This document shows, one piece after another, positions 17,028-50,794 of a stretch of DNA of 64,000 bases. The stretch lies in assembly GCA_946811185.2 (NCBI GenBank), contig OX328097.1, positions 60,231,063 to 60,295,062 on the forward strand. Direction: 5' to 3'. The notes beneath the pieces are model-generated. The model ran no database searches and was not told where the DNA came from. It saw only the letters and a list, made by a program, of their open reading frames with translations. Origin of the DNA: Hippopus hippopus. Its lineage: Eukaryota; Mollusca; Bivalvia; Cardiida; Cardiidae. How positions within the stretch are numbered: position 1 is the first letter of the stretch; each line of letters begins with the position of its first letter. The translations under genes and the position numbers were made by a program.

Positions 17028-20000
17028 CTAATTTTCCTTTGAAATTCTTGATAGTCCCTCTTTAAGAAATATTTGGTATGCTTCACTGCTAGATAGCTCT
17101 CTGAAAATAGAATATACTTGACTGAAAGATTGTGAAATACATGTCTGTGAAAGATGAATTTTTATTTTCTTTATCAAAAAATTCAAAAGTTTTAATTCTT
17201 TACTAGGCTACAAAATTTTAGAAGTTTTTGTAGTGAAAGCATTTGCAAATAACAAATTAAATGATGGAATATGCCTTTTAAAGGATGGAAAAGCTGTGGG
17301 AAAAGTGAGAAGATGCTGGTGACCAGTGTTTTCTCCTTTTCCAACAATTTTTAAAAGCCTTCCTTGCTAGGGTGTTTAAAACATGGGACTGTTTGGCAAA
17401 GGTCTAAGTGCTTTTTTTTTTGACTGTGCAGATCCAAGATCAAATGACTAATGCATTTAAGGTGAGGTGTATGATCATTTGAACACATGACATGATGACA
17501 GTGATGCCAATACTAGATAAAGGACAACAGTGCCATTTGGCAAAAGTTTTCAGCACAGAATTCAGATAACCATTTTTGCAAAGTTGTCTTTTAAAGGGTA
17601 AAAAACATTGTGGAAAAAGCAGAAATTGCTGGTTACTGGCATTTTTCTTTTTTCCCACAATGTTTTCAAAAGTCTCCTTTCTCAGGTCGTTAAAAATTCA
17701 GAACTGTTTAGTAAAGGGTTAATAGTATGACATATAGACCACGTTTGAATACTTAAATTGTGGCAAAAAAAGGACATAATGCTCATAATAAGTAATATCT
17801 CTTTTAGCTACGACTGTTTTATTTGTATTCTTGTGCGAATTTTCGGTTCATATTGATTATAAAAGAGCTTTTTTCAAATTTATCTGCTGCAAAGTTTCAC
17901 AAGGTTATTGATTATAATGGTTACCTGTGTTGATCATTTACTAATGTCCGGAAAAAAGTGTTGGCCACCACTTTGTGGACAACAGAGCAATCTGGCTTAG
18001 TCAGCATCATGGTGACTGGAGGTTCGAAGTGCTTCAACAGACGTAAAGCTACTTTAGAGAGCACTGGTTCAGAAAATGTTTTCTGCGTCAAAACCTAAAA
18101 TTCAATGTAGTCTTTATAGTGTTATAGAATAAATGCACACGTATGATAATCAATTTGAAAGAATTACTGGTCATCATAGTGAACAAGGAAGAAAATAATT
18201 ATAAATATATTATACAACAAAATATTTTATGATATTAAAATTCTTGGTTTGAGTTCCCCTCACAGAATCACTTTTTTTAGTACATTCTTTACATGCCAAG
18301 AAAATTATTCAGTCATATACAGCCACAGCTTTTGTTACATCATCATATCAAATACCATTATAACAATTTTTTTCAAAATCAAAGCTGCTTTACATAATCA
18401 CATGACAAATCTTCAGACTAGATTAAAAATGCTGCCCAAATAATGGCTTTTCTCCTTGAAAGGGTATACAACATTGTAAGATAGGAGAAAATGTTGTTTT
18501 AAAAAGCTGTCTTCCTCAGGATTGTTTGGTACAGGGTTGAAGCCATGGACATATTCCTAATTTATTATATACCGGTAAATTTTTTGGCTCAAATATATGT
18601 GTCGCAATCGGACAGAATAACACACAAGACGGAAAGAAAAAAAATCTGTATCTACACACTGTCAAATACGGTTCCAAATATGGTTTGATGATGCATCTTG
18701 CGCACAGGCTAAGCATGCATTGATTTCCGATTTGATTAGTCAAAATGTTACACTGTAATATTAATCTGCCATTCATAAAAACAGAGTTACTACCTTCCAC
18801 ACTATTAATGTCTAATTTTGTTTACCGTTTTCGAATAAAATGTCATGAATTACAAAATGTTGTAGTTGAAAGTTGTAGGTATATAATAAAAGGAATATCA
18901 TTGTAGTAACTTTCCTGGTGCTTGTATTTACTTCTCACTGCGTAAGAAAATTTAGACATCGCGCTCAACCTTCAGTCTCATATATTTTCTCACATTGCTT
19001 GAATTAAATACAAGCACCAGGACAGTTACTACAACATAATATTCCATATTTATATATGTAATCGGTTACCTGATATTCAGCACTTCATCATTAACATATT
19101 CACACACAAAATACCTGAAGATCTTTATAAAAGCACCAGTTGCTTATGAAACTGTCAAGAAGAATATTCATAACGGGCGCACTTTGTAGGACATTTTCCC
19201 TTAAAGTGCGCCCAGAACCTCAGCAACTCTGGTCATCAAGAGCACCCCATAGAATGATTGTGTGAATCAGTTTGTCTTGTTGTTCTGCCAGCTTCATTGC
19301 TTCTGACAAATTGTAATAAGGAACCTGTGTAAGGGTACAAAATTGATAAAAAAATAAGATTCATAAAGGTACTTCTTTTTGGCTGCTTGCTATACCAAAC
19401 ATTTTGAGACCTGACACTGACAATATGACAAAGTTGCACAAAGCAAAAAAAAAAAGAAGGAAATTAATTTCATTCATAAATGATGTGGAACACATTGTGG
19501 GAAAATGATCAACATTGCTTCTGAAATAAGCAGTGACTTTTTTCCCAAAATGTTTTTAGAAAGCTGCTTTAATGCAGGGATATTGAGTCATAAATAAGTT
19601 GAACTAAAAATGTCTTTCTTTATCTATTGCTCAGATTCTCTGTTACCTGTTTAAAGGGATACATTTCATGTTCCATAAGCCTGTATGCTTCATCCATTGG
19701 AATTTCTTCAGACCAGATCATGTCGTGCTTGTCATCTTGTAACTTCTTGGCCCTGTTTGCTTCAACACTGGAGACAGAAGGTGAAGTCATTTGAAGAGAC
19801 ATCTCCGGAATGTAACCTATGTCAGCTTGGAGCCCTCTTGTGTCATCAATCCATTCCAAATCTTGGATATGAAAAATAATATATGAATGGATAACAAAAG
19901 AACCCTGATGGTACTATATTACACTCTTGCATACCTAGGATAAATTTCGGTGTCTTTTCAGACCAGATATCATTGTGCTGGTCATTTGGAAAGCTTGGTA

Positions 20001-22666
20001 AATTCTATGTTTTATTTGCTGTCCTAGTGGGGATAAATAAGGGTTATATGCAGATACAACACTCAAATTTAGCCCATATCAGCTTGAGAAATATTAGTTA
20101 ATAGGATTTAGGACTGAAACAACATTTTCGGTCAAGAAAAAATTTGGTCTATATCTTTGAACTACAGCTTTATAGATTTTATTTAGTTTCTTACCAACAT
20201 TAAGCCTTCTTTTTGTAGGAACATACATCTTGAAATACTGGATGTGTTGTAAGTCATGTGATATTACCAGATTGCCTGTAAATTGTGCTGGGGTAAACCA
20301 AAGTGGAACATTGGAACGTTTGTTCAACTGGAACTCAGCATGAAGTCTGTTGCATGAAAATAAAAAAGTAAGTCCATCACAGTGATATATTCAGCAAACA
20401 ATCTAGACTAACTTCTGTATTGGCAGAGAATCCTGTAAAACCGGACTGCTAGTCTCACATTGAACCCTTGCAAGACAATCCTGCGTTTTTACCATCCTGA
20501 CAAAGAAGGACTTTGAACTCTTTTACCAAACTCCAAAGTTTTAGGCTTGTTGAAATTCAAAGCAATATGGAGACAGAAATATTTTTTTATTGCTAAAAAG
20601 ATGGATTAGTCTTTGAAAAGGTAGAAAACTTTTTGGGAAAATGAGAAAATGCTGGTTACCAGCATTTTCTTCTTTTCTCACAATATTAGGGTCATTAAAA
20701 CTAAGGACTGTGCAATAAAGAATTAAACATTGTGGAAACATTACAACATGCTGCTAACCTGTATTTTCTCCTTTTCTCTCTTGTTAAAATATTTTATACA
20801 CAAACACCATCCATTGTGCCCAACTTGATATAATTGATACCACAAAAAAAAATAGTTTTCTTGCAAATTCATCCATGGTTACATATGGTACAAAAAGACT
20901 TAAGACTATCGTTTTTACAAAAATACTCCAAGTTTGAAAGTATTAAACCTACCTGAAAACAATTTCAAAATACTTTTCATTCTTAGCCCTCACAATGGCT
21001 ACCCCTCCACTTGGAAGAAATCTTGTAACAATAAAAACATTTCTATGAAACATGGAAAACAGGGTTTGAATTGTTGAATACTTTTCATCAATGGTTGGCG
21101 GAAAATGTCGGTGACTGGACAGGGGCTTGGAGTCTGTACCTTCATCCATTTTTCTCACTTTCACAATCTCATATATTTGTCCCAAAGTATTGTTCAAGGT
21201 CAAAGGTGGTAGGAAAACACTGAAGTTATTGACAGGAACATGCAACCATTTTTTGTTTACCTTCTTCCACGATTTTAAACCATTTAATGGGTCGTTAGGG
21301 TTGGATTTCTACAATAGAGGAAACAAACCTTTATGACAAGTCCTGCTTCATTAAGTATTGTGGCATGAAACATTAGACTGAGTAAAATCTTGGCATGTTC
21401 TATCATTTGCTTGCTTATTTACAAATATACCTTTTTAAGACCCTCAGCCAGACAGTTTTCAACAATGTGAAGAGGAAAGGAGCATTGCTTCCCAACCATT
21501 TTTTCTGTCATTTCAATAAAAAGAAATCTTTTTTGCCACATGCATCTTTTTTATGTCATTAGTAGTGGCAGATCCATATCTACAAATAATCAGCATTATA
21601 TTTGGTTTCAAAGAGTGTCTTTTCAATGGAAATCTATGACCCAATCCATGCACTGGTAACTCAAGAGGGCTCTTAAGAACCTTAGAAAAGACTTAACTAT
21701 TCATATAAAATCTCAAAAGTGAAATGGAGCTATGTTGCACTGGTATTGTAAGGGAAATCATGTGAATGAATAAAAATGCAAACAAAATAAACCTTAGAAT
21801 GTTTGGTTATTTCATTTTGGAGGGTTGGTAATTTGATTCTTGAAAATTGGGCTTCCACGGTCACAAACTGGTCCCTCTCATAGCTTTGTGCACCAACATC
21901 TCCCTGGAATAATTTGGACAAATAATGATGAACAATTAAGATAGGTACTTTTGGGAGTCGTCTTTTTAATTTGAAAATGTATAGTTTGGGATGATGAAAA
22001 GGAGGAAGTTTATATTTTACCCAATTTCATACCATGGTGAACCATGCTTTAGCATACATGGCCATTTTCCTAGCACAGGTGTTCACAAAACAATTCTTAT
22101 CGTTGTGGTGGAAAGTTATTCATACCCAAATCTCTTCTGGCTTTTTTTGACTTTTTAACAAACAGCAGGATAATCAACATGGGAAGCATTTGCAGTCAGC
22201 GTGTTAAATGAAGCTTAAACGATGAGATTTGTCTTTAGAAGAGTAGGAAACATTGCAGAAAACGAGAAAATACTGGTTACAAGGATTTTCTCCTGTTACC
22301 AAAATGTTTTTAAAAGTCTTTCTCCTTAAGTTGGTTAAGCCATAGGCATGTTTGGTGAAAGGTTATGACTGTGTAAAGTAAAGCGCTACCAGTAATTTTT
22401 TTATCAGTGTAAATGTTACTTACAGACAAAATTCTACTCTCGGCAAGTCCATCTTCCATAGGTATTGAAGGTATCACATCTTCCCACATATATTCAGACC
22501 AGTCCTTTGTAGACCGATACATAGTTTCCCACATATATGTAATATGTAACCATGGGTAACACACTGCCATCAAGGAGCCTACCATCAAACATGTCCAGAA
22601 CACACATCTGTTGTTAGTATTTGTCTGTGATTCTTTGGTTTCCTTAATTATTTTATCCTTAGCCAT
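17028..22666 (-). CDS. SELENON: Selenoprotein N paralogue C: Sec motif retained, no EF-hand
   Basis: Eight exons, minus strand: 22666-22424, 21903-21793, 21308-20953, 20346-20195, 19861-19647, 19324-19115, 18094-17925, 17100-17028; all GT/AG with consistent phases, 510 codons counting TAG. SELENON is an ER membrane glycoprotein that links calcium sensing to SERCA redox regulation. Seen: one membrane segment (about residues 20-42), the lumenal block ending [16 protein letters not shown] then LHAEFQL and [15 protein letters not shown] (human FWFSPAQFTGHIILS), [10 protein letters not shown] (human DIGYIPQMEL), and the redox exon [21 protein letters not shown], identical around Sec to human. The end reads [13 protein letters not shown]. 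Exon 1 continues as [20 protein letters not shown] with no DxDxDG loop, unlike paralogue A. Residues near [15 protein letters not shown] are more diverged than in A. The TGA must be decoded as Sec for a full product. Confidence 0.88.
18901..19034. mobile_element. Small MITE with 29-bp inverted ends
   Basis: Starts TTGTAGTAACTTTCCTGGTG and ends CACCAGGACAGTTACTACAA; the arms pair apart from one or two mismatches. Lies between SELENON-C exons 6 and 7, 80 bp from the redox exon donor. Confidence 0.65.
19115..19324 (-). CDS. SELENON: SELENON-C redox exon with in-frame TGA (Sec)
   Basis: Exon of 210 nt, phase 0 on both sides, the same length as the matching exon of paralogue A. The frame reads [19 protein letters not shown], then [13 protein letters not shown] at 19222-19220, then [21 protein letters not shown] is the selenium redox centre, resembling the GCUG end of thioredoxin reductase. 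Coding-grade conservation continues on both sides of the TGA and the exon has no other stop, which argues for selenocysteine rather than a pseudogene. Confidence 0.9.
19175..19213 (-). promoter_or_regulatory. Selenocysteine redefinition element-like stem, paralogue C
   Basis: It starts six bases after the TGA. The arms GGGCGCACTTT and AAAGTGCGCCC pair perfectly over 11 bp, with a possible inner AGG/CCT pairing. SELENON is known to carry such a redefinition stem (SRE) that promotes UGA decoding; the position and strength match that element. Confidence 0.75.
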
Positions 22667-25621: not shown

Positions 25622-28600
25622 TCAAGGAAAATGTTCGAATTTCACGGGTCTATTTCCTTCTAAAACTTGTGGATTATATGGGTCAAAGTTCATATTCTGC
25701 ACTTTTCTTCTCTTCTTCCTGACTTTCAACTTTTTGTTAATAATCTCATATGCTTCATCATAAGATATCTTTTCCGTCCAATTGATCTGGCGTGTGTTCG
25801 AAGCCTGATGTGGGAGTTTTTTGTATCTGTTGATAGGGGACACTGGCACAGAAGGAGAGGTGGCCTCTAATGACATCTCTAGTATGTGCTCTTCACTGAT
25901 TTGGTAGAACTGGTGTTCAACCCATTCAAGATCTGAAAATAAGATACAGTGAAAACTTGATTATTCAAACATAATATGTAGTAGTCAACTCTTGGCCATG
26001 CAATCCTGAGTTTTGACGACCCTAAGTAAGAAGCCTTTTGAAAACATTGTGGGAAAAGGAGCATTTTCTAAAATCTGGCTACAATGATGGACATGTCTTT
26101 GAAAAGTTTGAAAACCTTGTGGGGTAAGAAGAAAATGCTGATCACCATAATGTTCTTTGTTTCCCAGCATTTTTGCTAAAGGTTATGTGTTTACGAAACA
26201 ATTCAGTTCTAAAACCACTGAAGAAGAGGGTTTTGGAAATATTGTGGGATAAGAGAGAATGCTGCTAACTGGCATTTTGTCCTTTTCACATGTTTTTTTC
26301 TTTCCTTTCAATTACAAATTACGTTTTTAATTGTTTGATTGAAAATTAAACGCAACAACATAAATATTGCAATACCAATTCTGTTATGGTCAAGATATCT
26401 CAAAAAACAAAACAAGTCAGACAATAAAGATCCAAGACCAGCATGATTTGTACACTTCAGTCTTGATCTACCCTATTCATGAAAGTGACTTAACTCTTTA
26501 CCAAATGTTACAATTTTAAACTTGTTCAAATTGAAAGCCTTTGCAGACAACAAATACAGTGTAACTCAAAACATGAAATTTGTCTTTGATAGAGTTGAGG
26601 ACCTTGTGGGAATGTTTTCATAGGACTTCTTCCTAAGGATCATTTAAAGATGGCATTGTGTGGTAAAGGGCTAACTGGGGCTTTGCACTCATTATATCCC
26701 AATTAAAACAATCTTGCAGAAACAACTGTTAAAACATCATAGTAAATCAATTTTTTTTAAATACGGAAAATTAACAGGGTTTAAAGTCTAATTTGTCACC
26801 TAGGGAAAAGTGGAAAAAGAAGAAATTGTTTGCACATTTTTGGCATCTGGTATTGAGTAAATTTGTCTTCTCACAAACCTTTCAATATCAAAGAGTCTAC
26901 AGATTTCTCATTTTGTAAAGATATTAAAGAGCAATCCAACACAGTAAGTGATTACAAACCATCCCCAAAGTGTGCTTCTCTGTCAGTTGGAATAAACATT
27001 CTAAATGATAGAATACGGTCCATATCCGTGGAGACAATCAGGCTGCCTTTGAAAGGTATTGGTGTCATCCATAACTGAATATTTGGGGGTTCACTTAGCT
27101 GGAATTCAGCAGCAATTCTAGAATAGAGAAATTTGAAATATTCTTCACTGGCATACCTGTATTTAACCCTTTACCACACAATACCAAATTTTAACAAACC
27201 TGGTTTGAAATATTCTTTACTGGCATACCTGTATTTAACCCTTTACCACACAATGCCAAACTTTAACAAACCTGGTGGCAAAGAGTTTTGAAAACATTGT
27301 GGGAAAAGGTGAAAATGCTGGATACCAGCATTTTCTCCTATTCCTACAATGTTTTCTACCCTTTCATGCAAAAATACTATCATTTGAGCAAAATTTTATT
27401 TGTCATCTGCATATGCTTTTAATTTATACTGCATATGCCTTCAATTTATACTGGTATAAATTTTCATCTGGGTTAATCCGCTACCACACAATCCAAAGTT
27501 TGAGAAACCATAAGTTCCTCGAGAAAGAAAGCTTTTGGAAACGTTGTAGCAATACATGTACAGCGAAATACTGGTAACCCTGACACACAAAACTCCAATC
27601 ATTCGAGCCACAGTAGCAACACTGTTCTGATAAAAATGAATGAATAAATATTGTTTTATTGCAGATCCACACTAGGATCATTTAGTGTGCATAACCAAAT
27701 AAAAGATGATAATTAGAATTGTGTGAACTTAACCTTTTACCAAACAGCAGAAGTTATGACTCGTCCATACTGTAGAGACTTGCAGACAAAAAATGACTAC
27801 AGCTCAAATAATTGGCTTTGTTCTTGAAATGGCAGAAATCATTTTAGGATTCATTTGAGCCACATTTAATGTTTGGTCTGCAAATGCTGTCAATTTCGGC
27901 AAGAGAAAAATCGGATTGTTTGGTAAAGAGTTATTTAATCACATTTATTCCACCAATTATGACATAACCAGACAAAGATATCTTATTTTGTCAAAAATAT
28001 CTTACCTGAAAACAATTTCTATGTAAGCTTCATTCTTTGCTCTTATCACAGCATAGCCACCTTGAGGAGAATTTCTCTTGACAATGAACGCATTTTTATG
28101 AAACATTGAAAGCATTTTCTGGATTGGTCCATATTGATCTTTCACCAGTGGAGGGTAATAAAACTTGCCCGATACAATTTTTTGTTTTTGTCCAGTTTTG
28201 GGGTCTGTTGCAACAGCATCTCTAAGTTCACGTGGAAGTATTTGGTAAATTTTACCTACTCCAGTAATAGAGTGTGGAGGGAAAAATGTCCTGAAGTGTC
28301 TTACAGCAAAGTTGTACCACTCTTTGTTCGGTTTTTGCCATACTTCAATTCCATGGAATATGTCATTCAGTCCATAAAGCTGAAAATGAATTGGCCAGAC
28401 CATTACTTTATATTCTTTTTTCTTTACTAGGTAACAAAATTTTAGACTTGTCCATATTTAATGCATTTGCTGAAGACAAAGAAACCTTGGCCCAAATGAT
28501 GGGATTTAACCACGAATGGATAAACATTATGGGATTAGGAGAAAATGCATTTTCTCCTTTTTCCACAATGTTTTCAAAAGCCGTTTTCCTGAGGGTCAAT

Positions 28601-31339
28601 AAAACATGGGATTGGATGGTACAGGGTTAAACCCTAAATGTAACTGAGGGAAACAAATCGTCTTAAAGTACCTTTTGCATAAAAGGACCAACTTTTCTTG
28701 GGCCCTTCGGTGGCTCCATAACACAGGTTTGCTGGTATAGCAATCCTAAAACCACAACATACAATTAGTACTTTTCACAGCTCACACTCAGAAAGCTTTT
28801 GAAAACCATGTGGCATAAGAAACAAATGCTTGTAATGAGTAATTTCTCTATTTGTCAAAATGTTTTTACATAAATTTCTGTATCAAACTGCAATTTATTT
28901 TTACTATCCATATTTTGCTGCAGCAAATTTATTTCATGCTTCAGGAAATTAAATTTGCAATGTGCCAGGATCAACAATGTTCTATGTCATATCTTCCATA
29001 GAAAATAAAAACTCAATGATCTCCACCCATGTGCGTGAAATTTACACCATAACTATGAAATTAGTTAGATCTGCAATAAACTATTGTAGGTATCTCAACC
29101 CTTTACCAGACATTGCTGTGTTCTAACGGCTCTACTAAAGAAGGCTTTTGAAAAACAGTGTAGAAACTATGTATTCTCCCATTTCAAAGACAAGAATAAC
29201 TTTTAATATCAAATTTTAATTGTTGTTGCAAATGCCTCCAAGTTGATAAAGTCTATAATTTTATTGCTTGGCAAAGGGTAAACTCTTTACCACACAATCC
29301 CAACTTTTAACGACCCTGAGGAAGAAGCCTTTTGAAAACATTGTGAGAAAAGGAGAAAATGCTGGTAAGCAGCACTTTCTCCTTTTCCCACAATGTTTTC
29401 TGCTCTATCAAGGAAAAATTGTGTCATTTTTGCCACCTTTGTCATCTGCAATTGCTTTCAATTTGGACAAGTCAATAATTTTGTTGCTTGGTAAAGGGTG
29501 AAAAAAGAAAAGAAAAACATACCACAAGATCTTCTTGTTTTTGTTTTTCTGACTTGACCGAATGATAGAGGTTGCGCTGTCTAAACTTTCCTTGTAAAGT
29601 CACAATTTCATCAATGTCCAAGATGTTGAGGTAGTAGTCCCAGTTCTGAAAGTAAATATATAATGGTATATTTGGCCATGCTCTGGGAAAAGATTTTGTA
29701 ATGAATCTCCATCATGCATTATACCAAGCAAATTATTATCAAGTAAGTATGGATCCATAAAATACATTTGTTTAACAAGCAACTGAATTATGAGGTAGAC
29801 TGGTCTTCTGACATGCAGAAAATTGACAAATAGCAAAAGGTTTTGACACAGGTCAGCCTGCATGGCCTGCATAGGCTGATCTGGGTCAATACTTTTTTGT
29901 AGATGCATGGCTCATTTCAATGTTGCCCAATAATTTTGACTAAAGCAATAATGATATATGACCTCACTGTGACCTAGATCTTTTGAACTGATCATAAAAG
30001 ATCATTTTATTCTTTATGGTGAATATCAGTAACAGGCATGCACTTGTTTTAAACAGTGTCAATGTAATGTTGAGACAACGTTGAGTTTGTTGAAGGTGAC
30101 AGTGACCTTGACCCTTGACCCATTGAAGTCAAAATCAATAGGATCATTTGCAACTGGTAAATATCTAGTTTAAACTAAGTAAAAAGTACTTATGTCACAC
30201 CAGTATTCGCTTGTTTTCTAGACAAGGTTCAGAGTCTTGATTGTCACCATATTAATGTAATCTTTGATCTATAAATGACCCTAAAGTCAACACTTCATGG
30301 TGGATACTTGTTCTAAATTTGGAAGACCATATATTGTCCTTACATGGTTCAGTACATTGAAGGTTCCTATGACCTTGACATTGAAATATAAAGGGTTCAA
30401 GGGGATTTGGAAACATTAAACAATCTTTCACAGCAACAACAATTGATAGATGGTCGTAAATGCAAGAAAATTTCTTACTCTGCTCATCTATTTTAAAAAA
30501 ATTCTCTATCCAAAATGTGCAGATTTCATTTCATTACTTCTTTATACAAGCTAGTAGCAGACCAATTAGAAATCATTATTGAAAACAAAAACAATAATCA
30601 GCATTAATTTTAACACATATTTTCAAAAGCCAGGTACTACTGGAAAATAAATCTTTTTGCAGGAATATGTTAACTCCTTACCAGATGACAAAATTTTAGA
30701 CTTGTCCCAACTTGAAGCATATGCAGGTGGTAAATGGGGCTACAAATGATGAAATTCGCTTTGAAATGTAGAAACATTGGATAGTTTGGTTAACTCTTTA
30801 CCAGATGACAAAATTTTAGCCTTGTCCAAACTGAAGAATCTACAATTTCAATGTGGCTTAAATAGTGCAGTTTTTCTTAGATAGGGTAGAAAACATTGTG
30901 GGAAAAGGAAAAAATGGTGGTTACCAGCATTTTCGCTTTTTCCTCCAATGTTTTCAAAAGGCTTCTTTCCCAGCATTATGTGGTAAAGGGTTAAGTGTTA
31001 CAGGATGAACAGAACATAGAAAATAATTTATGGACCTACCTTGGGAAGATGAGTCAAATGCAGAAACATTTTATGAAATTCCTGTATTGATATACGGTCA
31101 TCCCAATCTTTGTCGCATTCCAGGAACATTTGGAAACCCTCTTTACCAACAGTTTTGAAGACCTCCAATGGATATTTTGGTGTTTTACGAATTGAAGTTT
31201 TCTTTAAGTTTCTAAACTGAAAATATCCCACTGACAGTGATATAGTAATAACAAAGCTAGCACAAACAAAAAATACATTTTTGCAAGAGCAGATAGTTTT
31301 TAGTCTATTCCAGCAATGGTCAATCATTATAATATACAT
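25622..31339 (-). CDS. Selenoprotein N paralogue B: no Sec/redox domain, basic C-terminal tail
   Basis: Six exons read on the minus strand: 31339-31040, 29645-29523, 28731-28672 (20 codons, less certain), 28379-28006, 27117-26960, 25932-25622; phases agree and the total is 442 codons with TGA. Seen: basic start with TICSC, a membrane segment (about residues 22-42), an EF-hand-like loop DKDWDDRISIQEF in which loop glycine 6 is Asp, VGKEGFQMF before it, the lumenal block NKEWYNFAVRHFRTFFPP, SMFHKNAFIVKR and RAKNEAYIEIVFR, then AAEFQL, WMTPIPFKGSLIVS and LEMSLEATSPSVPVSP (human MELEATGPSVPSV). Where A and C continue to the SCUG exon, B runs on into KVRKKRRKVQ and stops at HFP-TGA. No SCUG exon was seen between 25621 and 22667. 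Donors after the fifth exon (GTTTGT) are weak. The TGA here is followed by no conserved frame, so I read it as a true stop. Confidence 0.8.
27130..27275. repeat. 71-bp tandem duplication
   Basis: TTTGAAATATTCTTCACTGG through CCCTTTACCACACAAT and AACAAACCTGG occurs twice, starting 13 bp from SELENON-B exon 5. Confidence 0.8.
30790..30994 (-). mobile_element. TTAA palindromic MITE copy
   Basis: TTAA both ends; shortened by internal loss; lies just downstream of SELENON-B exon 1 in its first intron. Confidence 0.7.
31040..31339 (-). CDS. SELENON-B exon 1: membrane anchor and EF-hand-like loop
   Basis: 100 codons to AAG before GTAGGT. ATG choice is between 31339 and a second ATG four codons later. 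The loop has Asp at 1, 3 and 5, Ser at 9 and Glu at 12, so calcium binding is possible, but Asp replaces the usual Gly at 6. The CSC-K motif before the membrane segment is shared with paralogue A (RCSCRK), supporting common origin. Confidence 0.75.
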
Positions 31340-35640: not shown

Positions 35641-35643
<3 letters not shown>

Positions 35644-38535: not shown

Positions 38536-38620
38536 TTACAACTCTGCTAGTATCCCTGCTTCTGCCTTTTGTATACCTTCCTTCAGAAAACTGACGTAAC
38601 TGTCTGCATGAGATGCAAAT
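38536..38620 (-). CDS. SELENON: SELENON-A terminal exon
   Basis: Acceptor TTCTAATTATTTCAG, then [20 protein letters not shown] and AGILAEL-TAA, matching the human C-terminal YMQFLKEGLRRG. The last exon of paralogue C (17100-17028, [17 protein letters not shown]) is homologous. The roughly 20 residues that human has between NANYF and this segment are absent here. Confidence 0.85.
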
Positions 38621-41600
38621 CTGAAATAATTAGAAAATTCCACTTTAGTTCCATCATTCTTAAACCTTACCTCCCACCGCTGACTGCTGGGAAAGCAGCC
38701 AGTGGCTTGGAAAAAAATTGTGTGGAGTACTGGTACAGGAGACACCAGGAAAGCATGGATAGGTGCGCTGGCCGCCACAATATAACAAAAATAATGTTGA
38801 AAACGGCATTAAACACCATACAATCAATCAATCGATCAATCAGTCAATCTTAAATCTTTAAATTATACCCTACACCAGAAGATAAAATTTTAGACACATC
38901 CTTACTGAAGGCATTGGCAGACAACAAAAAATCAAATAAAGCTCAAAAAATGGGGTTTATCTGGTCCTTGAATGGGTAGAAACAATGCAGTAAAAGGAGA
39001 AAATACTGGTTTCCATCATTTTTTTTCCCTTTCCCTCATTATTTTCAAAAGCTTTCTTTTTCAGGGTTTTTAAAGCACTTGAATGTTCAATAAAGTGTTT
39101 TGTGGGCTACAATGTAACAGCTGTTTTAATTAATTATGTGAATTCCTTATTAATTATGTGAATTCTTTCATTATTATTGTAAAAATCTATTTTCAATCAA
39201 ATAATAACAGAAGCCTAGGACTAAGAATAACTTTTATAACTTTAGAAAGTTCAAAGTTACTTAATTATAGACTTGGAAGGAATGAGTGTCTTTCCTTATA
39301 ATAATGGTGTACTACATATACATGTGTTAAACAAAATGTTACTCAACATTTAGGTAATAAACATCAAATATATCACTGATGCACTAGTAAACACTTTTGT
39401 TTTTTATTGAATTACATATCTTTAAGTAAAAGCATGACTTCTACTTCTATTTGGAACGGTGTAATTCCTCAAAAACAACAAACAAATTCTATATCATGCA
39501 TGTATTAGAGAAGATCCATTCTTTTTCTTTAACTCTTTACCAAAAGACATAATTTTAGACTAGTCCAAATTGGAAGCATTTGCAGACGACAAAATTAATG
39601 TGACTCAAAAATTGAAATTTGTTTTGGGAAGGGAAGAAAACATTGTGGGAAAAGGAGAAAATGCTGGTTACCAGCATTTTCTCCTTTTCCTACAATGTTT
39701 TCAGAAGGCTTCTTTCTCAGGATCGTGAAAACCAGGGATTGTTTGGGAAAGGGTTCACTCTTTATCAGATTACAATCTTCTACATTTAGTCCATGTCAAA
39801 AGCTGCTTACAAGCATCATCTACTTTTCATACAACATTTTCAAAAGCTTTCTTCCTCAGATCGTAAAGCACAAAATCTTTCGGTAAAGATTGAAGAGAAC
39901 TGCTTATTAGCTTATACTACTGAAGATAAAAACAACAGCAGAAAAAAAACATAGTCACACCACTATTTTCATCTTGTGTCTTTTTCTACATAACCAGTAC
40001 TGGTATTTGAATGACTAGTGTTTAATGTTCACATTTTAACCAAACCTTACCCAAGTGCATTGAAAACCTTGACAAGTGCTGTAAACAGTATCAAACCCTG
40101 TTCTCCTTTGCGTGCAAACAAACACTTCATGAGTACTTATTTTTCAAAATAAAACAAATTCTTTTGAATGAGACATCATAAATAAAGTGTCATAAACTTA
40201 GTTTAGAGATCTGCCACCATTCTTAAGAACGTTCTCAGTCATATTCTCCTGAATTTTTGAAATAAAGTAACTAAACTTCTGATTGGCTAAACCATTTGAT
40301 TTAGCCAATCAAAAGTTTTGTTACTTTCAAATGTTGAAATCTTAGAGAATAAAACAAAGAATGCTCTTAAGAAAGGTTGGTGAAAATGGACCCAGGCTAG
40401 CTAGGAACCTTGTAAGTAAATAGAAGCTTTTGAAAAAATTGTGGAAAAGAAAAAAAAAATGCTCATAACCAGCATTTTCTCCTTTTCCTGTTTTTTTTTT
40501 TTTTTACCATCTGAACAACAAATCTCATTATCTTAGCCACATTTGTCATCTCCTACAGGTTTTTATTCAGACAAGTCTAGAAATTTGTCATTTAGTATAG
40601 AGTTGAACAAAGGGTTAAGGTTAAATACACAGACAGCATTAGTAGGAAATGAATCAAAACACTTCAACCACAAACCACAAAGACAGGACTTTATTTTCCC
40701 ACAGGAATAAAATCCGCAAAATTTAAACTTAATTCATTTTGCACAAAATTGCACCCTATCCTGTGCTAGGAAACATCACCACGACAAAATACGACAAAAA
40801 AAAAATTTACGTGGGTCCATGATCTTCTCTCACGTAATCATTAGCGTTAATCTTATGAATTACAGTTCCATTTGGGTGGGTGATCATCATCATTACTGGA
40901 AACTTGTAATGATCCAGTAAGTGCTTAGCAAGAAAGAATGTCTCGGGCTGGGTGAATTTTTTCTTCATTTCCTGCAGCAGGGTCAAGGTCACAGATAATT
41001 TTAAGGTTAAAGCACATGAAATAGTCAAATCTGAAAGCATGCTCACTCAAAGCAAGACATAGATCATAATGTTGTCACTATTTTGCCACTGAAATAAACT
41101 AAGACTCTATAGAACTTAAAAAAAAAATATTTGGTTAAAGAGACTATTGTTTATTTCCAGTTAGACTTCCTTTCCAAAAGTATCCTCCCTGTAGTTACAT
41201 GAACTAGTAAACGTACTAACTCATACTGTAATTTAGGCATACAAATGTACATTCCCAAAATAGGCTAGTATAGTATTTTCTAATTACAACTAATCACCAT
41301 TAGCCAATCAAATGCTAGATACATGAAATTCAGAATGTCTTTTCTTCTAATTTCACGCAATAAGCAATGAATAAGGTACAATAGCTACAACAGTATGACA
41401 TAAGACTGAAGTTTCGAGGTAGTAAGGACAGGCAACAAATTCCATGCTATCTCAATAATCATACAGTTTCACAACCTTTATGCCTTGCCGAAATGTGATG
41501 TCTTTTAGACAAAAAGGAAAGTAATGTGTACAATGGCATATTGCTAGCTAAGGTTTAACATATCAATTTCTTTGCTAAATGTGGTTCAACTTTCACGTAA

Positions 41601-44600
41601 TCTTTATACAAAATTCAGTTATAAACCTGAGGGAGGAAGTTGTTGCCTCACAATCAACAAGTCAGCAAAACGAAACAGATGGAAGGTGTCCAATATCCCA
41701 AGCTTTCTTCAAGTAACCTACATTTTTTCACAGGCACAAGTCTACTACTAAGAAAATGATCAGTGGATCTGACAGACATACCACAAGATAAAGATTTACT
41801 ATTGTTACATGCATAATATGACATTTCAAAATGTTAGCTATGGTAACATATAGTAAAGTAGACATTGTAATATTTGGCATACTCAGCTGATGTAGACCCT
41901 GTAATACTTGGCATATTCAGTTGATGTAGACATTGTAATATTTGGCATATTCAGTTGATGCAGACATTGTAATATTTGGCATATTCAGCTGATGTAGACA
42001 CTGTAATACTTGGCATACTCAGCTGAAGAGTTATTGCATGCTGCTTGTAAATAAAGGTATGACTTAAGGTAAAATGATTTACATGAGTAGCTTGTGATAT
42101 TGAACAAACCCACCATGGCTGATTTCATCTTACTGATATAATATACATGTAAATTATTGCTTCCTTTTGTCAACACTATCTGCATAGTCAGGAAATATAT
42201 TTGAAAAAATTGCTCTTTCTACAACATCATTTAGCCAAAGAAATTAATTTCATTCTTTCTTTTCTAACTATAGCGTCAAGGTCATATTAGTCAAAAACTT
42301 TCACGTCATGTTTATCCCAGTTTTGACAAATCAGGTGACACAATTGCATGGATGTTTTCAGTGATCTGCAGCAAATTCGTTTAACCCTTTACCACACGAT
42401 CCCAACTTTAAATGACCCTAAGGAAGAAGACTTTTGAAAACATTGTGGGTAAAGGAGAAAATGCTGGAAACCAGCATTTTCTCCTTTTCCTACAATGTTT
42501 TCTAACCTTCCAGGTATAATTTTCATTTTTTCAGTCACATTTGTTTTGTCATCTGCAAATGCTTTGAATTTGGACAAGTCAAAAATTTGATCGTTTGGTA
42601 AATGGTTAGGAAGCAAAATGTCTATGCAAAAATATGTCCAACCGTTATTAACAAAAAGAGGCAAGGAACATAGAAAGCTACACATGCATAAGGTTTTGAA
42701 ATAAAATGATTACATTGATCCTTCATTTGTACCATCCAAGTAATCATTGGCGTTTATTTTATGTATCACAGAACCATTTGAATGAGTGACCATCATCATG
42801 ACGGGGAATTTATAATGAGCAAGTAAATGGCTAGCAACTTTTGAATAGTCGGGCTGGGTCGAGTCCTTTTTCAAGGCCTACAATAATTTGAAATACAAGT
42901 ATCATTTATAAATACATGTAAATAATAAATAAGAATGTATAAAAGAAATATAAATGAAAAATTCATTCTAGTTTTTTTTACAAGTAGAGGCTTCAGTCAC
43001 CAATGAGTTTGAAAAAAATTGGTTAAAAAAAGGCTTAAATTGATCATTGTCAGCAATCTCACATTTTCCCACAATGTTCTAACAAGTTAAAACAATATCT
43101 CCTTTTGTCACAATATTTCTACCATGAAAAACATTACATATCCATATTTAGTTGAGCAAGAACTTCTGACAAGGCTTCACTCTATACCACACAATCCAGA
43201 GTTTTAATGACGCCGATGAAGAAGCCTTTTGAAAACATTGTGGGAAAAGGAGAAAATGCTGTTACCAGCATTTTCTCCTTTTCCCTCAATGTTTTCTACA
43301 CTATCAAAGAGAAATTCCATCAATTATGCCATATTTAAATTGTCGTCTGCAAATGCTTTCAATATGGACAAGTCTACATTTTTGTTGTGTGATAAAGAGT
43401 TAACCCTTTACCTAACCACAATATTTTCGACTTGTCTAAAGCAAAAGCATTTGCAGACGACATATTAAAAATGGCTCTAATGATAGATTTGTTTAACCCT
43501 TTACCACACGACCAATTTTAGACCTGTCCGAATTGAAAGCATTTGCAGAGGACAGTTTCAATGCGGATCTTATGAAATGATTTTTCTTTGATAGGGTAGA
43601 AAACATTGTGGGAAAAGGAGAAAATGCTGGTTACCAGCATTTTCTCCTTTTCCCACAATGTTTTCAAAAGCCTTCTCTATCAGGGGTGTCGAAAGTCGTC
43701 ATTGTGTGGTAAAGGGTTAAAAGAGCAGACAACATTCTGAGAATTGAAGAAAATGCTTGTTACATGCATTCTCTCCTTTACCCGTAATGTTTACAAGTTT
43801 TATTCTTCAGGGTTATTAAAACTTAGGATTGTGTGGTATAGGGTTAAGCCGTACTTTCCATCCAAACAAGCTCAAATTTCAAAGAAATGGAACCAATAAT
43901 GGAGACTTTGCTCCATAAACAAGAATGAACCGTAGATCAGCTCCTTCAGCTACACTGTTGCTTGGATTTTCTTCCTTTTCATCTGGTTTCAACATATTCG
44001 TTAGGCAAAGACTGATGCATGTTTCAAAAGAATCACATCAAAAATGTGGACTTCATCACGTAAAAAATAAATGACCAGTAAAGCTAAAACAATAAATAAT
44101 AGTTTAACCCTTTCCCAAACAATCCCTGGTTTTTACGGGTCAGGAATAGAAGCCTTTTGAAAACATTGTGGGAAAAGGAGAAAATGCTGGTAACCAGCAT
44201 TTTCTCCTTTTCCCACAATGTTTTCTACCCTATCATATAGAAAAATCATCTTTTTAGCAAATGTTAATTTGTCATCTGCAAAATGCTTTCAATTTGGTCT
44301 GGTCCAAAATTTGCCGTTTGGGAAAGGGTTAACACTTAACCAAATGATTTCCTACTAAGGAAGCAGGCTACAAAACAGCACTTTCTCCTTTTCCCACAAT
44401 GTTTTCAACGTTTCAGACACAAATTCAACCAATTTAGCCACATTTAATTTACTTTCTGCAAATGCTTCTCATTTGAAAAAGTCCAAATTCTGCAATCTAG
44501 CACGGAGTAAAATGGGTTGTCCTACCTCCAGATCCGCCACAAGACACCAGCTGCTAACAAATCTCTCCTCAAGGAGAGACAAAACGGGCGCACTCTCGAG

Positions 44601-47600
44601 AGATGACTCTCTCAAAGTGCGCCCTGAACCTCAGCAGCTCTGGTCGTCTAAAGCGCCCCACAACAATATAGTGTGGACAAGTTTGTTTTCCTTCTCAGCC
44701 CTCTCTAGAGATTCTGTTAAATTGTAGTATTTAACCTGTAATGAAAAATAAAAAGATTATAATATTCTAACCTGTCAGTTTTCACCAACTAATGTTAAGA
44801 AAATTCTTAGTATTATTCTCAAGTAGTTTCTAAATTTGAAGTAAAACAACTCCTGATTGGCTAAGCTATAGGGTTTAGCCTATCAGAAGTTTTGTTACTT
44901 TCTAAATCTACGATTAAACTGGTAATGAAATTAAGAATGACATGTGAATACAGATCCTGTATTTACCCTTTATCACAAAATCCCAATTTTATCCCAATTT
45001 TAACAATCTGTAGAGAAGAGGTTTTTGAAAACATGGTGGGAAAAAGAGAAAATGCTGGTAACTAGCATTTTCTCCTTTTCCCAAAAATGTTTTCTATTCT
45101 TATAAAGACAATTCCCATCATTTGAGCAACACTGCATTAGTCGCCTACAAGCCTCAAACTTTGTTGTCTAGTAAAGAGTTAAGTTGTTGTTTTGTTGTTT
45201 AAAGCCGCTTTGAACATTATTTCAGTTATATCGCGGATGCCAGTGCACCTATCCATGCTTTCCTGGAGTCTCTTTTACCACTACTCTGCACAATTTTCTT
45301 TCCAATCCACTGGCTGATTTCCCACATAACCATCATTGAGACAATGGTCAGTGGTGAGAGAGGAATGAATCCTGTCGCAATGACTCTCATCAATCCTCGG
45401 AAAGAAATTGACCAAGCCAGGGATCGAACCCAAAACCCCCTGTTCTAAAGTCCTACACACTACCAACTGAACTACAGGGACACGGCCAGTAAAGAGAAAA
45501 TGTGTTTGCTTAAGGCAGGTGCTTGCTTAGTACAGGTACATTTTTACAAGCATGTCTTCGATAGAGATTTTTGTTTTATAATGGCTTAATACAAATTGGT
45601 TGCATAACAGAGGTGGCCACTAGGTTTACCTTATAGAAATAATAGAAATCTGGTAATTCAAATATCCAAAGCTTGAAACTTGATCACATGCCGTACTTTT
45701 CAGCATCTTAACTGGATCTAGTGTTTGCTACTGTTTAACTTTATGCATAACAAGCATGAAAGGGTTATAAAAGTAATACATGTACCTTCTTAAATGGGTA
45801 CATTTTAACTTCAAGATCAGCTAAAGCTTTTTCCATAGAAATTTCCTTTGTCCACTCTATTTTGTCAAGGTCAAACTGCTTCTCTGGGATTTTGTCTTCA
45901 ACATTGAAATCTTTCACGGCTACTGACGGTGCGGTGGTATGGAGAGACATTTCAGGCATGTAGCCAATATCCACTTCCATACCTCTGGCTCCTTGCAGCC
46001 ATTCCATGTCTAGAAGCAGAAACAGGAAAAATATCAATAAACACTTTACCATACACTCCTTTGTTTTAACAACACCATGAAAAAAAACTTTTGAAAACAT
46101 TGTGGGAAAAGGAGAAAATGCTGGTAACCAGCATTTTCTCCTTTTCTCACAATGTTTTCTAACCTCTTAAAGACAAATCCAATCATGTGAGCCACATTAA
46201 ATTCATCGCCTGTAAATGCTTTGAATTTTGACAAGTCTGAATCTTTGTTGTGTGATAGATAGTTACCACCCTAGGGTAGGAGGCTTTTGAAAACATTTAG
46301 AATAATTGTGAAATTCTGGTAACTAGCATTTTTTTTTCCTTTTCTCACATGGTTTTCTGCTCTTAGACAAATATTTTCAAATCAGCAATCCTGAAAGTGT
46401 GGTCTGGAAATAGACCTAATTTCAATTTGGATGGGCACTTAACAAGAATTTATACTGTCTGGTGAAGAGTTAAGGCAGCAGATACTTTGAAACACCTTCG
46501 TGAGTGATAGATAATCAATATCAGTTAACCCTCTACCACACAATTCTGACCTTTATCAACCCTGGGGAAGAAGACTTTTGAAACCATTGTGGGAAAAGGG
46601 GAAAATGCTGGTATCTATCGTTTTCTCCTTCTCCCACGTTGTTTTCTAACTGCTCAAAAAAAATTTAAATTTTTGAGTCACAATTTTTTTTGTCGTCTGC
46701 AAGAGCTTCCAATTTGGACAAGTCTAAAATTTTGTTGTTTGATAAAGAGTTAAAATTTGTCAGAATTTCTTCCTTTGTCAAAATGTTTTAACCCTTGACC
46801 AATTGACGGAATTCTAAATTTGCCCAAACTGAAAACACTTGCAGACAACAAATTAACAGTTACTGTGGTTGAAATTATGGAATCTGCCTGTACAAGGGCT
46901 AAAAAATATTCTGGGAAAAGGAGAAAATGCTGGTTACAAGCATTTTCTCTTTTTCCCACAATGTTTTCAAAAGCCTTTTTTACTTGGGGATTGTTTGGTA
47001 AAAATTTATTACTTGTTCTGCTGTATGACAAAACACAAAAACAAAAAAAAAAAACAAAAAAAAAAAAACAAAAAAAAAAAAAGGTCGCCTGAAGTCAGTA
47101 ATGAAATAATAAAACACTTTTTCTGTACTTACCTACATTAAGTTTTTTATCTGCTGGAACATACATATTAAAATGTAGGATTTCTGTCTGATCTTTCGAT
47201 ATCACAAGGTGCCCCATAAATTGTCCAGGAGTAAACCAGAATGGGTTGTTTGGGGGGTTGTTTAGTTGGAATTCAGCATGAATCCTGTAAAAACAAATAA
47301 TGTTCTTAGCATTTTGCAGATGACAAATTAAATGTGGCTTAAATAGTGGGATTTGTCTTTAAAAGGATGCAAAACATTGTGGGATAAGGAGAAAATGCTG
47401 ATTGCTAGCATAACCACCATTTTCAAATCTGTTCTCCAAAGGCACTATCCTCAGGGCTTGTAAAAACAAAGTATCGTTTGGTAAGGATACAAGTGTTATA
47501 TAGTGTTTTGGCAGAGAATATAAACATGCTTGGCAGTTTTTCTTTCTTAAGTCTTTGACAAACATTCCTGACTTTCAAGACCCATAGAAAGAAGATCTAC

Positions 47601-50600
47601 GCCAACAACATGGGTATAGGAGAAATGCTAGTAACCAGCATTTTCTCATTTTCTCACATTATTTTCAACCCTTTCAAAGACGGCTTTCATCATCTCAGCA
47701 AAATCCAATGTATCATTTGCATATCCTTTCCATTTTGGTCAGTCAAAAATTTTGTCATCTCGAAAAGAGATAATTTTCCTTTTACTCTGACTAAACATTT
47801 ACTTTACTTATATTTAGAAGAAAAAGAGTTACCTCTGATTGCTATGGATGGTTTCTAAATCTTGCACTGACATTAAAAAAATCCTATTAAGCTAAAACAT
47901 GAAAGACAAACCTAAATACAATGTCAAGGTATTTCTCATTCTTGGCTCGAATAATACCAACTGCTCCACGAGGACGGAATCTGTTCATTAGGAAAGAGTG
48001 TGGATGAAACATGGTCAACATTCGGTGAATGGCAACATTGTCATCATCAACATGTGGTGGAAAGTATCTATTACTTGACAGATCTCCACCAATGAAATTA
48101 AACATATCAAGGCGTTCCTCTGTGATGTAGTAAACTTCTCCAACAGCATTGTACACAGATCCTGGTGGCAAAAAGGGACTGAAATGTCGGACAGCAAAAT
48201 TCATCCATTCTTTACGAGGTTCCCGCCAATTTTTCAATCCTTCCAGAGGATCCAGTTCACCATATCCCTGTAAAAATATGGTGATGTGTTCTGTTTAAAA
48301 CAAAAATCCCAAATTGGCCAAGATGGCTGTAAAAACCTTTAACTCTCTACCACACAATCCCGAGTTTTAACGACCCCTTACAGAAAAGGCTTATGAAAAC
48401 ATTGTGGGAAAAGGAGAAAATGCTGGTTACCATCATTTTCTCCTTTTCCCATAATGTTTTCTACACTGTCAAAGCCAGAAATCATCAACTGAGCTACATT
48501 TAATTAGTTGTCTGCAATTGCTTTCAATTTGGTTGAGTCCAAAATTTTATTGTTTGGTAATGAGATAACTCTTTACCAAACGACAAAATTTAAGACTGGT
48601 CCAAATTCAAAGCCTGTGCAGACGACAAATTAAACATGGTTAAAATGCTGGGATTTGTCTTTGAAGGGATAGAAAACATTGTGGGAAAAGGTGAAAATGC
48701 TGGTTACCAGCATTTTCTCCTTTTCCCAAAATGTTTTCAAAAGCTGTCTTTATCAGGGTCGTTAAAACTCGGGACTGTTTGGTAAACAGTTAACCAAAAA
48801 AGTCAGCATTTAACACTAAATGTTGTCACATCAAAAATGAAGACCCTGGACAAAAGCTATCTAGAGATATTTCAACCAAACTCATCATTTGATCAAACCC
48901 AATATAGATTCACATAAGTGTGACATCTGCCAATATCTAAAAAGTCCTCTGCTGTAAGATGCAAAAAGTCTACAGCAATCTGTTTCCAAAATAGTTATAA
49001 ATAGAATTCACTTACGAGAAGGGTAGACTCAAAGTCCAAATCTTTGGTCATAGATGAAAGCAGTAGGGGTTTGAACTTGGCTTCTAAGGTAACCATGTAA
49101 TCATGTTCTTCTATTGGCTGTTCATAGACCTCAACTTCAAAAGTGATCTGTAACAATAATGGTAAATGTAGTGATAGTTACTTGGTCCGGTTGGTTATTT
49201 AGTGTTCAATGCTGTTTAAACATTGCTTCAGTTATGTCACAGTGGCTGCTGCACCTATCCACTCTTTCCTTGACTTTCTTTTCTACAGCAAAATCAGTTG
49301 CATCAGGTAACAATTTGTTTCATTTTTCATAACATTTTCCATACCATTAGGAAAGAATATGTTCCCACCCTTCAAATAAGTGTCTCTAACCTTTTACCAC
49401 AGAATTCAGAGTTCCTGAGAAAACAGGCTTTTGAGAGCATTGTGGGAAAAATAGAAAATACCGGTTACCAGCATTTCTTCCTCTTCCCAAAAATGTTTTC
49501 TACTCTTTCAAAGACAATTTTTAGTTTCTGAGTCACTTTTCTTTTATCATCTGCAAATGCTTTCAATTTGGACTGGAAAGCAATGTTTTCAGAGGCGTGT
49601 CTACAGCGAAGACTTCCACATTTAATCAATGAATCCTTGTATATCCCTTTCCCAAACAACAAATTTCAGACTCTGCCAAATAAAAAGGATCTACAGATGA
49701 TCTCTGATACAGATAGGGTAGAAAACATCGTGGGAAAAGGAGAAAATGTTGTTTTCTCCTTTTCCCACAATGTTTTCAAAAGCCTTTGTCTTTAGAGTTA
49801 AAACTCTAGGCTGTGTGGTATAGGGATGTGGTGTTACATCCAAAGACACTAAACTAGAGCTGTCACTGAATGTGACTTAATACCCCCGCCAGCGCTTTGA
49901 CAGAAAAAAGTGTCAAGTTCAAGGGGAGATAATTCCTCAATCAGGAGGAGTTGACACTTGAAAACTGCGTCTTGCAAGTTTCAATACAATTGAAGGAAAA
50001 CTGTAGGAGGAGTTTGCGACACAAAATTACTAGTATTTTGTACACAGACTGACACACGGACGGACACACTGAAAGACAGGCTGATTCCAGTATACCCCCG
50101 AAAACATTCGTTTTGCAGGGGTATAAACATAGACACCAAATCACATGGATCTCATCAGGTAAAACCGACAGAATACGAAGTCTGAAATTTTCTCGTTTGT
50201 TCACCCCTAACCAAACAATGCTATGTTTTCATGACGCTGAGGCAGATTGCTTTTAAAAACATTGTGGGAGGAGTAGAAAATGCTGGTAACCAGCATTTTC
50301 TTCTTTTCCCATAGTATTTTCTATCCTTTCATAGACAATCTCCATTTTTTGTGACACATTTCATTTATCATTGGCAAATTCTTTCAATTTGCAAAAGTCT
50401 AAATATTTTTCATTTGCTAGAGAGTGAGCAACCAGTTTTATTGGTCATACAAAGATAACAATATTAGCGCTACAATGCTACTTACATTAGAACTTTTTCC
50501 AACAAAGCGATGATAAAGTGCCTCATACTCCACTATCGACAAATATCCATCCCCATCTCTATCATGGGCTGTAAACATCTGCACGCCTTCAAATCCAAGG

Positions 50601-50794
50601 GCCTGATACACCTCTTGCGGTATTTCTTGTTCTCTTGTATGCACATACACATACCCAGCTAAAATCCCTGCTAAACCAACTATAACTGCGCTTGTCCAAA
50701 ACAAAATCTTTCTGCAGCTGCATCTTTTTTTCGGGGGATCTTTTGATTCTTTCCCCAGGTCTTCAGCACTCTCTTTCCGTTCAGTGTCTGTCAT
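38536..50794 (-). CDS. SELENON: Selenoprotein N paralogue A: full-length, EF-hand plus Sec motif, alternative exon pair
   Basis: Exons, minus strand: 50794-50486, 49147-49016, 48267-47912, 47284-47133, 46009-45786, 44735-44526, then either 42877-42714 or 40971-40811, then 38620-38536. Phases agree; 544 or 543 codons with TAA, near the human isoform lacking exon 3. Seen: basic KKRCSCRK and TM (about residues 30-51), canonical EF-hand loop [12 protein letters not shown] (78-89), [11 protein letters not shown] (human LTIEARFQPLL), [14 protein letters not shown] (human FATRHFQPFLPPPG), [96 protein letters not shown] and NANDY, and [14 protein letters not shown] at the end. The start at 50794 was preferred over an upstream in-frame ATG at 50854 because the cytosolic tail then has the usual short length. 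The anchor places the conserved part in the ER lumen. This is the ancestral-looking member of the cluster. Confidence 0.92.
40215..40395. mobile_element. Inverted-CCAAT MITE copy
   Basis: Same outer CATTCTTAAGAA termini and central TTCTGATTGGCTAAACC / TTTAGCCAATCAAAAG inverted pair, in the intron before the last SELENON-A exon. Confidence 0.65.
40811..40971 (-). CDS. SELENON: SELENON-A alternative exon 7b
   Basis: Acceptor CCTGCTGCAG, donor CCCAC then GTAAAT; 161 nt (also remainder 2). It encodes [39 protein letters not shown] and [14 protein letters not shown]. Entry phase 0 and exit phase 2 are the same as 7a, and both fit the last exon, which starts with the third base of a codon at 38620. 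Confidence 0.8.
41858..42028. repeat. 34-bp tandem repeat, five units
   Basis: Unit GTAGACATTGTAATATTTGG, CATATTCAGCTGAT. It lies in the interval between SELENON-A exons 7a and 7b. Confidence 0.8.
42714..42877 (-). CDS. SELENON: SELENON-A alternative exon 7a
   Basis: Acceptor ATTATTGTAG, donor AAT then GTAATC; 164 nt (remainder 2 on division by 3). It encodes [19 protein letters not shown], then [20 protein letters not shown] and [15 protein letters not shown]. It aligns over its whole length with exon 7b at 40971-40811. If the donor is not used, the frame ends at the TAA overlapping the splice site. Confidence 0.8.
43493..43720 (-). mobile_element. TTAA palindromic MITE copy (near-consensus)
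   Basis: TTAA both ends, perfect centre, in the intron before SELENON-A exon 7a. Confidence 0.85.
44104..44332 (+). mobile_element. TTAA palindromic MITE copy (near-consensus)
   Basis: TTAA both ends, perfect centre, 194 bp downstream of the SELENON-A redox exon. Confidence 0.85.
44526..44735 (-). CDS. SELENON: SELENON-A redox exon with in-frame TGA (Sec)
   Basis: 210 nt, phase 0 both sides. Reads [19 protein letters not shown], then [13 protein letters not shown] at 44633-44631, [20 protein letters not shown], and [10 protein letters not shown] before [26 protein letters not shown] in human is nearly the same. No other stop interrupts the frame. Confidence 0.93.
44586..44624 (-). promoter_or_regulatory. 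Selenocysteine redefinition element-like stem, paralogue A
   Basis: It begins six bases after the TGA. GGGCGCACT pairs with AGTGCGCCC; the helix continues through GAGAGA/TCTCTC with one bulged G and a GTCA loop, about 17 bp in all. The outer arms are identical to paralogue C although the inner stem differs, consistent with selection on pairing. Confidence 0.78.
45190..45482 (-). mobile_element. tRNA-derived SINE, second family
   Basis: On the minus strand: tRNA-like head with TAGTTCAGTTGGTAGTGT and GGGTTCGATCCCTGG, body with GGATTCATTCCTCTCTCACC, and an end close to AATGTTCAAAGCGGCTTTAA. Partial relatives: 4265-4500 (minus), 405-660 (plus), 38680-38850 (plus) and 49195-49285 (minus). Confidence 0.7.
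46525..46753 (+). mobile_element. TTAA palindromic MITE copy
   Basis: TTAA both ends; centre decayed on the right arm. Confidence 0.7.
47036..47082. repeat. A-rich tract
   Basis: Runs of A interrupted by single C, next to the acceptor side of the intron after SELENON-A exon 4. Confidence 0.9.
49872..50128. repeat. Dispersed repeat with CCCC(C)GC ends
   Basis: Runs from TACCCCCGCCAGCGCTTTGA to the hairpin TATACCCCCG...GCAGGGGTATA, with a run of ACGGACGGACACAC-like bases. Related in style to the element in the minisatellite (52166-52430). No coding frame. Confidence 0.5.
50486..50794 (-). CDS. SELENON: SELENON-A exon 1: TM anchor and canonical EF-hand
   Basis: 103 codons, donor GTAAGT. After the anchor, LGFEGVQMF leads into [14 protein letters not shown], a textbook EF-hand loop (Asp 1, 3, 5; Gly 6; Ser 9; Glu 12). 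Human SELENON has SLDTDGDMYISPEEF in the same place. Confidence 0.88.

Follow-up and report, generated by a model that had tools for sequence, protein, structure and literature searches.

Vertebrate selenoprotein N (SELENON, also SEPN1), a protein of the endoplasmic reticulum, is encoded by one gene that combines a calcium-sensing and a redox module. A membrane anchor is followed by a single EF-hand, a lumenal core and a thioredoxin fold bearing the motif SCUG, in which selenocysteine (Sec, U) is encoded by UGA, accompanied by a recoding stem-loop and a selenocysteine insertion sequence (SECIS) element. In human cells the Ca2+-loaded protein is an oligomer that is converted mostly to monomers on Ca2+ depletion, a treatment that also raises its redox trapping, and the EF-hand mutant D80A is almost only monomeric; a UGA-terminated short form also exists and is thought by the authors to oligomerise with the full-length protein (PMC7474598, available in part). 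Mutations in SELENON cause human myopathies (PMC12839072, available in part), and the coupling of the calcium sensor to the selenocysteine centre bears on these diseases. Among six invertebrate genomes surveyed, five had a single SelN and the sixth had none (PMC3473315, available in part), which makes an expanded, modular SELENON family unusual; a split or tandem family in molluscs was unreported in the literature searched, which covered few subscription journals. Here we describe such a family in the bivalve Hippopus hippopus, where a stretch of 64,000 nucleotides (assembly GCA_946811185.2, contig OX328097.1, positions 60,231,063 to 60,295,062), hereafter the window, holds three SELENON genes, A, B and C. 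Whereas vertebrates have one gene with both modules, two of these three genes each lack one of them.

Organization of the locus

Six-frame reading combined with splice-site fitting places three diverged SELENON genes head to tail on the minus strand of the window: gene A at 50794-38536, gene B at 31327-25622 and gene C at 22666-17028. The outer positions are ends of coding regions, 50794 marking the ATG chosen for A and 17028 being the last base of the stop codon of C. An original prediction, made from the letters of the window alone, had proposed a tandem triplication with a shared exon structure, and this is confirmed, with every quoted exon length exact. Bounded by AG and GT, the lumenal exon 3 measures 356, 374 and 356 nt and exon 4 measures 152, 158 and 152 nt in A, B and C, respectively, and the redox exon 6 measures 210 nt in A and C. 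The three genes have identical exon phases, and wherever their internal lengths differ, they do so by a multiple of three.

Profiles of the eight SELENON exons were run against all six frames of the window, with A and C among the profile rows, a composition that favours these two copies. The exon 1 profile matches A (E 1.5e-24), B (2.7e-10) and, through the anchor part only, C (0.012). Exon 2 is matched in A and C, while the profiles for exons 3, 4 and 5 match all three genes, with E-values of 7e-32, 2e-17 and 1.2e-5 in B; for C, itself a row of the profile, exon 3 gives 6e-37. Exons 6 and 8 are matched in A and C only, and exon 7 is matched twice in A and once in C. Together with inspection of the EF-hand loops, these profiles give the module split that had been predicted: both modules in A, the redox centre alone in C and the sensor alone in B. 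We regard this architecture as close to certain.

The three proteins share only 36-44% amino-acid identity, which refutes the assembly error that had been named as an alternative. The assembly comprises 34 contigs and 1.07 Gb, and the cluster is contained in a single long one of them, so that an artefact retains a negligible probability. When full-length A was searched against the genome of 1,068,471,763 bases, 18 of 18 matches fell inside the cluster; for full-length C the figure was 17 of 19, the other two having E-values of 0.2 and 5. The exons of B were matched by both queries, and no further convincing SELENON copy was found in the genome with either of them.

Gene A and its duplicated exon 7

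Exon 1 of A (50486..50794) carries the membrane anchor and a canonical EF-hand. The anchor is N-terminal and flanked by lysine and arginine, with the positive side first (KD19 1.93, flank charges +5/-2). Exons 2 (49016..49147), 5 (45786..46009) and 8 with the stop codon (38536..38620) were placed by their profiles, the lumenal exon 3 lies at 47912..48267 and exon 4 at 47133..47284. The redox exon 6 (44526..44735) contains an in-frame TGA at 44631-44633 within the SCUG motif, and a putative selenocysteine redefinition stem-loop (44586..44624) starts 6 nt past the UGA and folds 3.85 standard deviations below shuffled sequences. A SECIS element (36217..36281) lies 2.26 kb past the stop; it is recognized by Rfam SECIS_1 with 31.8 bits (E 0.0015), under the gathering score of 35 and hence unlisted at the gathering level. 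Of the near-invariant positions of the family, A keeps 79 of 81. With all these elements in place, from the anchor to the SECIS, A is an ordinary, canonical SELENON, resembling the vertebrate protein throughout.

New relative to the original prediction is a second exon 7 in A. Exons 7a (42714..42877, 164 nt) and 7b (40811..40971, 161 nt) encode the same part of the thioredoxin fold, run from phase 0 to phase 2 and are 62% identical, and both look constrained. Included jointly they shift the frame and meet a stop within three codons, so that the two are predicted to be spliced in a mutually exclusive manner. A would then be able to build one segment of its thioredoxin fold in either of two forms, and the duplication provides a natural swap of that segment. 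Oyster AOX presents a parallel, being a bivalve redox gene in which a duplicated, alternatively spliced exon gives two transcripts (PMC5589949, available in part), although that is a different gene and the splicing of exon 7 in A is only predicted. The alternative exon described for human SELENON is a different one, the Alu-derived exon 3 (PMC12839072, available in part).

Gene C, a selenoprotein gene without the EF-hand

Exon 1 of C (22424..22666) encodes an anchor; no EF-hand loop was found in it, nor any Pfam match, and near-invariant positions lost in the EF-hand region include G91, G94, F98, D106 and E113. The remainder follows A, with exons 2 (21793..21903), 5 (19647..19861), 7 (17925..18094) and 8 with the stop codon (17028..17100) placed by profile, exon 3 at 20953..21308 and exon 4 at 20195..20346. 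The lumenal core is conserved, and over the whole protein 66 of 80 aligned near-invariant positions are kept. Exon 6 (19115..19324) retains the SCUG motif with an in-frame TGA at 19220-19222, and the predicted redefinition stem-loop just 3' of it (19175..19213) folds 4.47 standard deviations below shuffles. A SECIS-like fold with an ATGA/GA core (16125..16199) lies 829 nt past the stop, and by eye its apical core looks like the one in A; a pattern-and-fold scan of the whole window returned four minus-strand sites, two of which are those of A and C. On these sequence features C is a selenoprotein gene that lacks the EF-hand.

Gene B, a SELENON-like gene without the redox centre

The four exons of B begin with a hydrophobic anchor and an EF-hand loop in exon 1 (31040..31327). 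The loop, DKDWDDRISIQE, keeps ligand positions 1, 3, 5, 9 and 12, with Gly6 replaced by Asp. The second exon (28006..28379) is homologous to exon 3, the third (26960..27117) to exon 4 and the last (25622..25932) to exon 5. This last exon has lost the ancestral donor site, which by eye reads AAGAAG/GT in A and AAGAAGAG in B, and it reads through to a TGA stop after about 30 new residues; an ATTAAA follows at 25366, 256 nt past the stop. In the B region the profiles for exons 2, 6, 7 and 8 gave only chance-level matches in all six frames (best E 2.1). Exons 6 to 8 make up the thioredoxin-fold domain, and B ends just before it. No UGA Sec codon, recoding stem-loop or convincing SECIS was found for B; the SECIS-like folds 3' of it are weak (-13.5), lie close to the first exon of C and fail a stricter scan. 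An alignment by MAFFT of the B tail to the start of exon 6 was rejected, being unsupported by the exon 6 profile. As read from its exons, B retains an EF-hand whose ligands are intact and is without the complete thioredoxin-fold domain, selenocysteine included.

Phylogeny and relatives

In a tree of 41 rows, A, B and C fall with Mactra antiquata (Venerida) inside a clade of ten (99/99), where the three are grouped together weakly (82/80). A second tree, of 26 rows and exons 3-5 alone, joins B and C as sisters (97/94) and gives no support to a clade of all three genes (64/26). The alternative groupings A+B and A+C are narrowly rejected for exons 3-5 by the approximately unbiased (AU) test (p 0.041 and 0.037). 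B and C are, however, the two longest end branches of that tree, and long-branch attraction could account for their sister grouping. A single A+B+C clade is weak, so that a duplication before the split from Mactra is possible. Because B and C evolve rapidly and group as sisters, their losses look complementary. The subfunctionalisation that had been proposed is reasonable in this respect, and the stop-free exons of both genes speak against decay.

The search of the protein collection with A was read from the best 120 of 388 matches. P0001 of Mytilus was considered as an orthologue of B and set aside: it is a near copy of the Mytilus galloprovincialis SELENON P0125 minus the redox-exon stretch, and gene models often drop the UGA exon, for which reason it was not counted; an origin from a true second Mytilus locus is possible. 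The bivalve SELENON models P0001, P0123, P0124 and P0125 in public collections skip or cut the Sec stretch, presumably owing to the UGA, which conceals the redox exon and could be mistaken for a loss of the B type. In Mytilus, the M. edulis 'SEPN1' P0030 and the M. galloprovincialis 'selenoprotein N' P0125 share only 46% identity and are placed in separate groups of a nine-row clade, the group of P0030 itself being weak (85/64). Mytilus may therefore also have more than one SELENON copy, through a separate duplication of its own. P0030 and P0125 both have the EF-hand and, in contrast to A, B and C, no module split was seen between them.

More distant relatives were found by tblastn at eight bacterial loci (L001-L008) from Poribacteria, Planctomycetota and one uncultured bacterium, seven of which carry a CU motif in the expected place, L008 being the one without it. 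Like C, these proteins combine a lumenal-type core with a Sec redox domain, the matches starting at query residue 183 or beyond, and in contrast to the animal proteins they show no match to the anchor and EF-hand region. Judging from these proteins, a redox part can occur where the sensor is absent. Some of the bacterial sequences carry an additional C-terminal part.

A single-sequence search against solved structures yielded no more than a weak match to calmodulin, and a profile search returned EF-hand proteins, with no SELENON among the best 60 of 324 matches. Foldseek gave a best E of 1.7e-3 and none at 1e-3; the lumenal core was barely probed by the fold search.

Proposed functions and competing explanations

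The explanation that best fits the locus as a whole, to which we give a probability of about 0.5, is that a single ancestral SELENON gene expanded into a tandem array of three, in which A would be regulated, C calcium-blind and B an inert partner. If the tree is right, a two-module ancestor of B and C would have duplicated, each daughter shedding the module kept by the other. A would act as in vertebrates, resting as a Ca2+-loaded oligomer and reducing targets of the SERCA type as a Ca2+-free monomer. C would resemble the D80A mutant, in a monomer-like state that is always active and unregulated, and a role as a calcium-blind selenoreductase is probable. B would be a SELENON-like protein without catalytic activity and the fixed equivalent of the human UGA-terminated form, which likewise keeps anchor, EF-hand and lumenal part and has no redox centre (PMC7474598, available in part). 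The human form is a by-product of failed recoding, whereas the truncation of B is fixed in a separate gene that also lacks the exon 2 segment. The most likely action of B would be to tune A through hetero-oligomerisation, by joining A and perhaps holding it, and we put forward tentatively that B is a partner or decoy of A. The complete, the sensor-only (without selenocysteine) and the redox-only versions in one genome amount to ready-made constructs for asking whether oligomerisation through the EF-hand really restrains the reductase.

Several observations weigh against this interpretation. The sensors score poorly: the EF-hand of A reaches 15.9 bits (E 0.0094) with PF00036, under the cut-off of 25.4, and that of B only 10.3 bits (E 0.56), also under it. 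The SECIS-like element of C is unrecognised by Rfam at E up to 10, and the pattern-and-fold scan found seven sites on the plus strand, which holds no SELENON gene, so that the scan by itself is no proof of a SECIS in C. Among 879 candidates from the protein collection no orthologue of B was found, only P0001 and the rotifer protein P0002 coming up, and none of C, whose best matches (the best 120 of 155) are general SELENONs. B is missing exon 2 and keeps 46 of 74 conserved, near-invariant positions; the 28 lost ones include M345, V347, D348, I349 and G350 of the lumenal core, and with them the MxVDIG motif. Its membrane segment has flank charges of +2 on the N side and +6 on the C side, a difference of C minus N of +4; the 26 relatives with a clear N-terminal anchor (28 were compared, and two whose best segment was not such an anchor were dropped) have differences of -8 to 0, opposite to B. 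With its flank charges reversed in this way, B may be inverted, or its anchor may be cleaved as a signal peptide.

These losses raise the question of whether B, and perhaps C too, is a decaying or recently dead copy whose missing module reflects degeneration and not a division of labour. The branches are long, 1.71-1.84 for B and 0.82-1.32 for C as against 0.40-0.46 for A, and B is also without exons 6, 7 and 8 and the exon 5 donor. The frames, however, are intact: B has zero stops and zero frame-breaking indels in 376 codons, C has no stop besides the Sec codon and no frame-breaking indel, and the splice sites of both are AG/GT. A neutral simulation starting from A, in which codon pairs containing a stop or Sec codon were excluded beforehand and mutation proceeded to the observed third-position divergence, gave on average 24 stops from A to B (359 codons) and 32 from A to C (487 codons), upper bounds because all change is placed on one branch. 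None of 2000 runs was stop-free for either pair, although the simulation is blind to very recent death. The intact frames argue against simple decay, as do the recoding stem-loop and SECIS-like element of C, and we consider degeneration unlikely. In a different arrangement B would be no gene of its own: its exons would serve C as an alternative 5' end, and the resulting chimeric SELENON would combine the EF-hand with the redox centre. The conserved phases would make this translatable, the joins B1-C2..8 and B1-B3-B4-C5..8 being in frame with the Sec UGA as the single internal stop. Yet B has its own stop with the ATTAAA beyond it, C starts with a first exon of its own that carries an ATG and an anchor, and the B exons homologous to exons 3-5 are kept in frame, a property not required if they merely supplied another 5' end; such a chimera therefore seems quite unlikely.

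The original prediction raised the possibility of hetero-oligomers of B and C, in which Ca2+ sensing and selenocysteine chemistry would reside in different polypeptides. The sister grouping of B and C, with complementary losses and with A+B and A+C rejected, speaks for such a pair, and the human short form offers a partial precedent. Human D80A is almost only monomeric and C has no EF-hand, so that C should not oligomerise upon Ca2+, and pairing of B with C would have to rely on a different interface from the known one. The AU margin is slight and the shared long branches could themselves create the grouping, while B lacks exon 2 and many core residues and has an uncertain topology. We consider this pairing improbable, and hold the same doubt over a fuller version in which, following a second duplication, the Ca2+ state of B gates the reductase of C, A bridges the two and the alternative exon 7 of A sets the choice of substrate. 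Pairing of A with B appears more plausible than pairing of B with C.

Other features of the window

A palindromic repeat (AAAACATTGTGGGAAAAGGAGAAAATGCTGGTTACCAGCATTTTCTCC...) occurs dozens of times between 15000 and 53000, where a 96-nt stretch, for instance, is present 35 times at an identity of at least 60%; the repeat fills the introns and looks like a miniature inverted-repeat transposable element. Rfam listings by E-value in the untranslated regions consist mostly of microRNA models that match a palindromic repeat, and were disregarded. A hydrophobic open frame of 102 amino acids at 4454-4762 on the minus strand, perhaps an exon of a membrane protein, has no Pfam match at E up to 10. Close upstream of exon 1 of A, at 51233-52164, a 44-nt unit forms an array of roughly 21 repeats. 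A sequence at 58451-58540 on the plus strand scores 36.3 bits in Rfam as tRNA-like and contains a long insert; it could be an intron-bearing tRNA or a short interspersed nuclear element.

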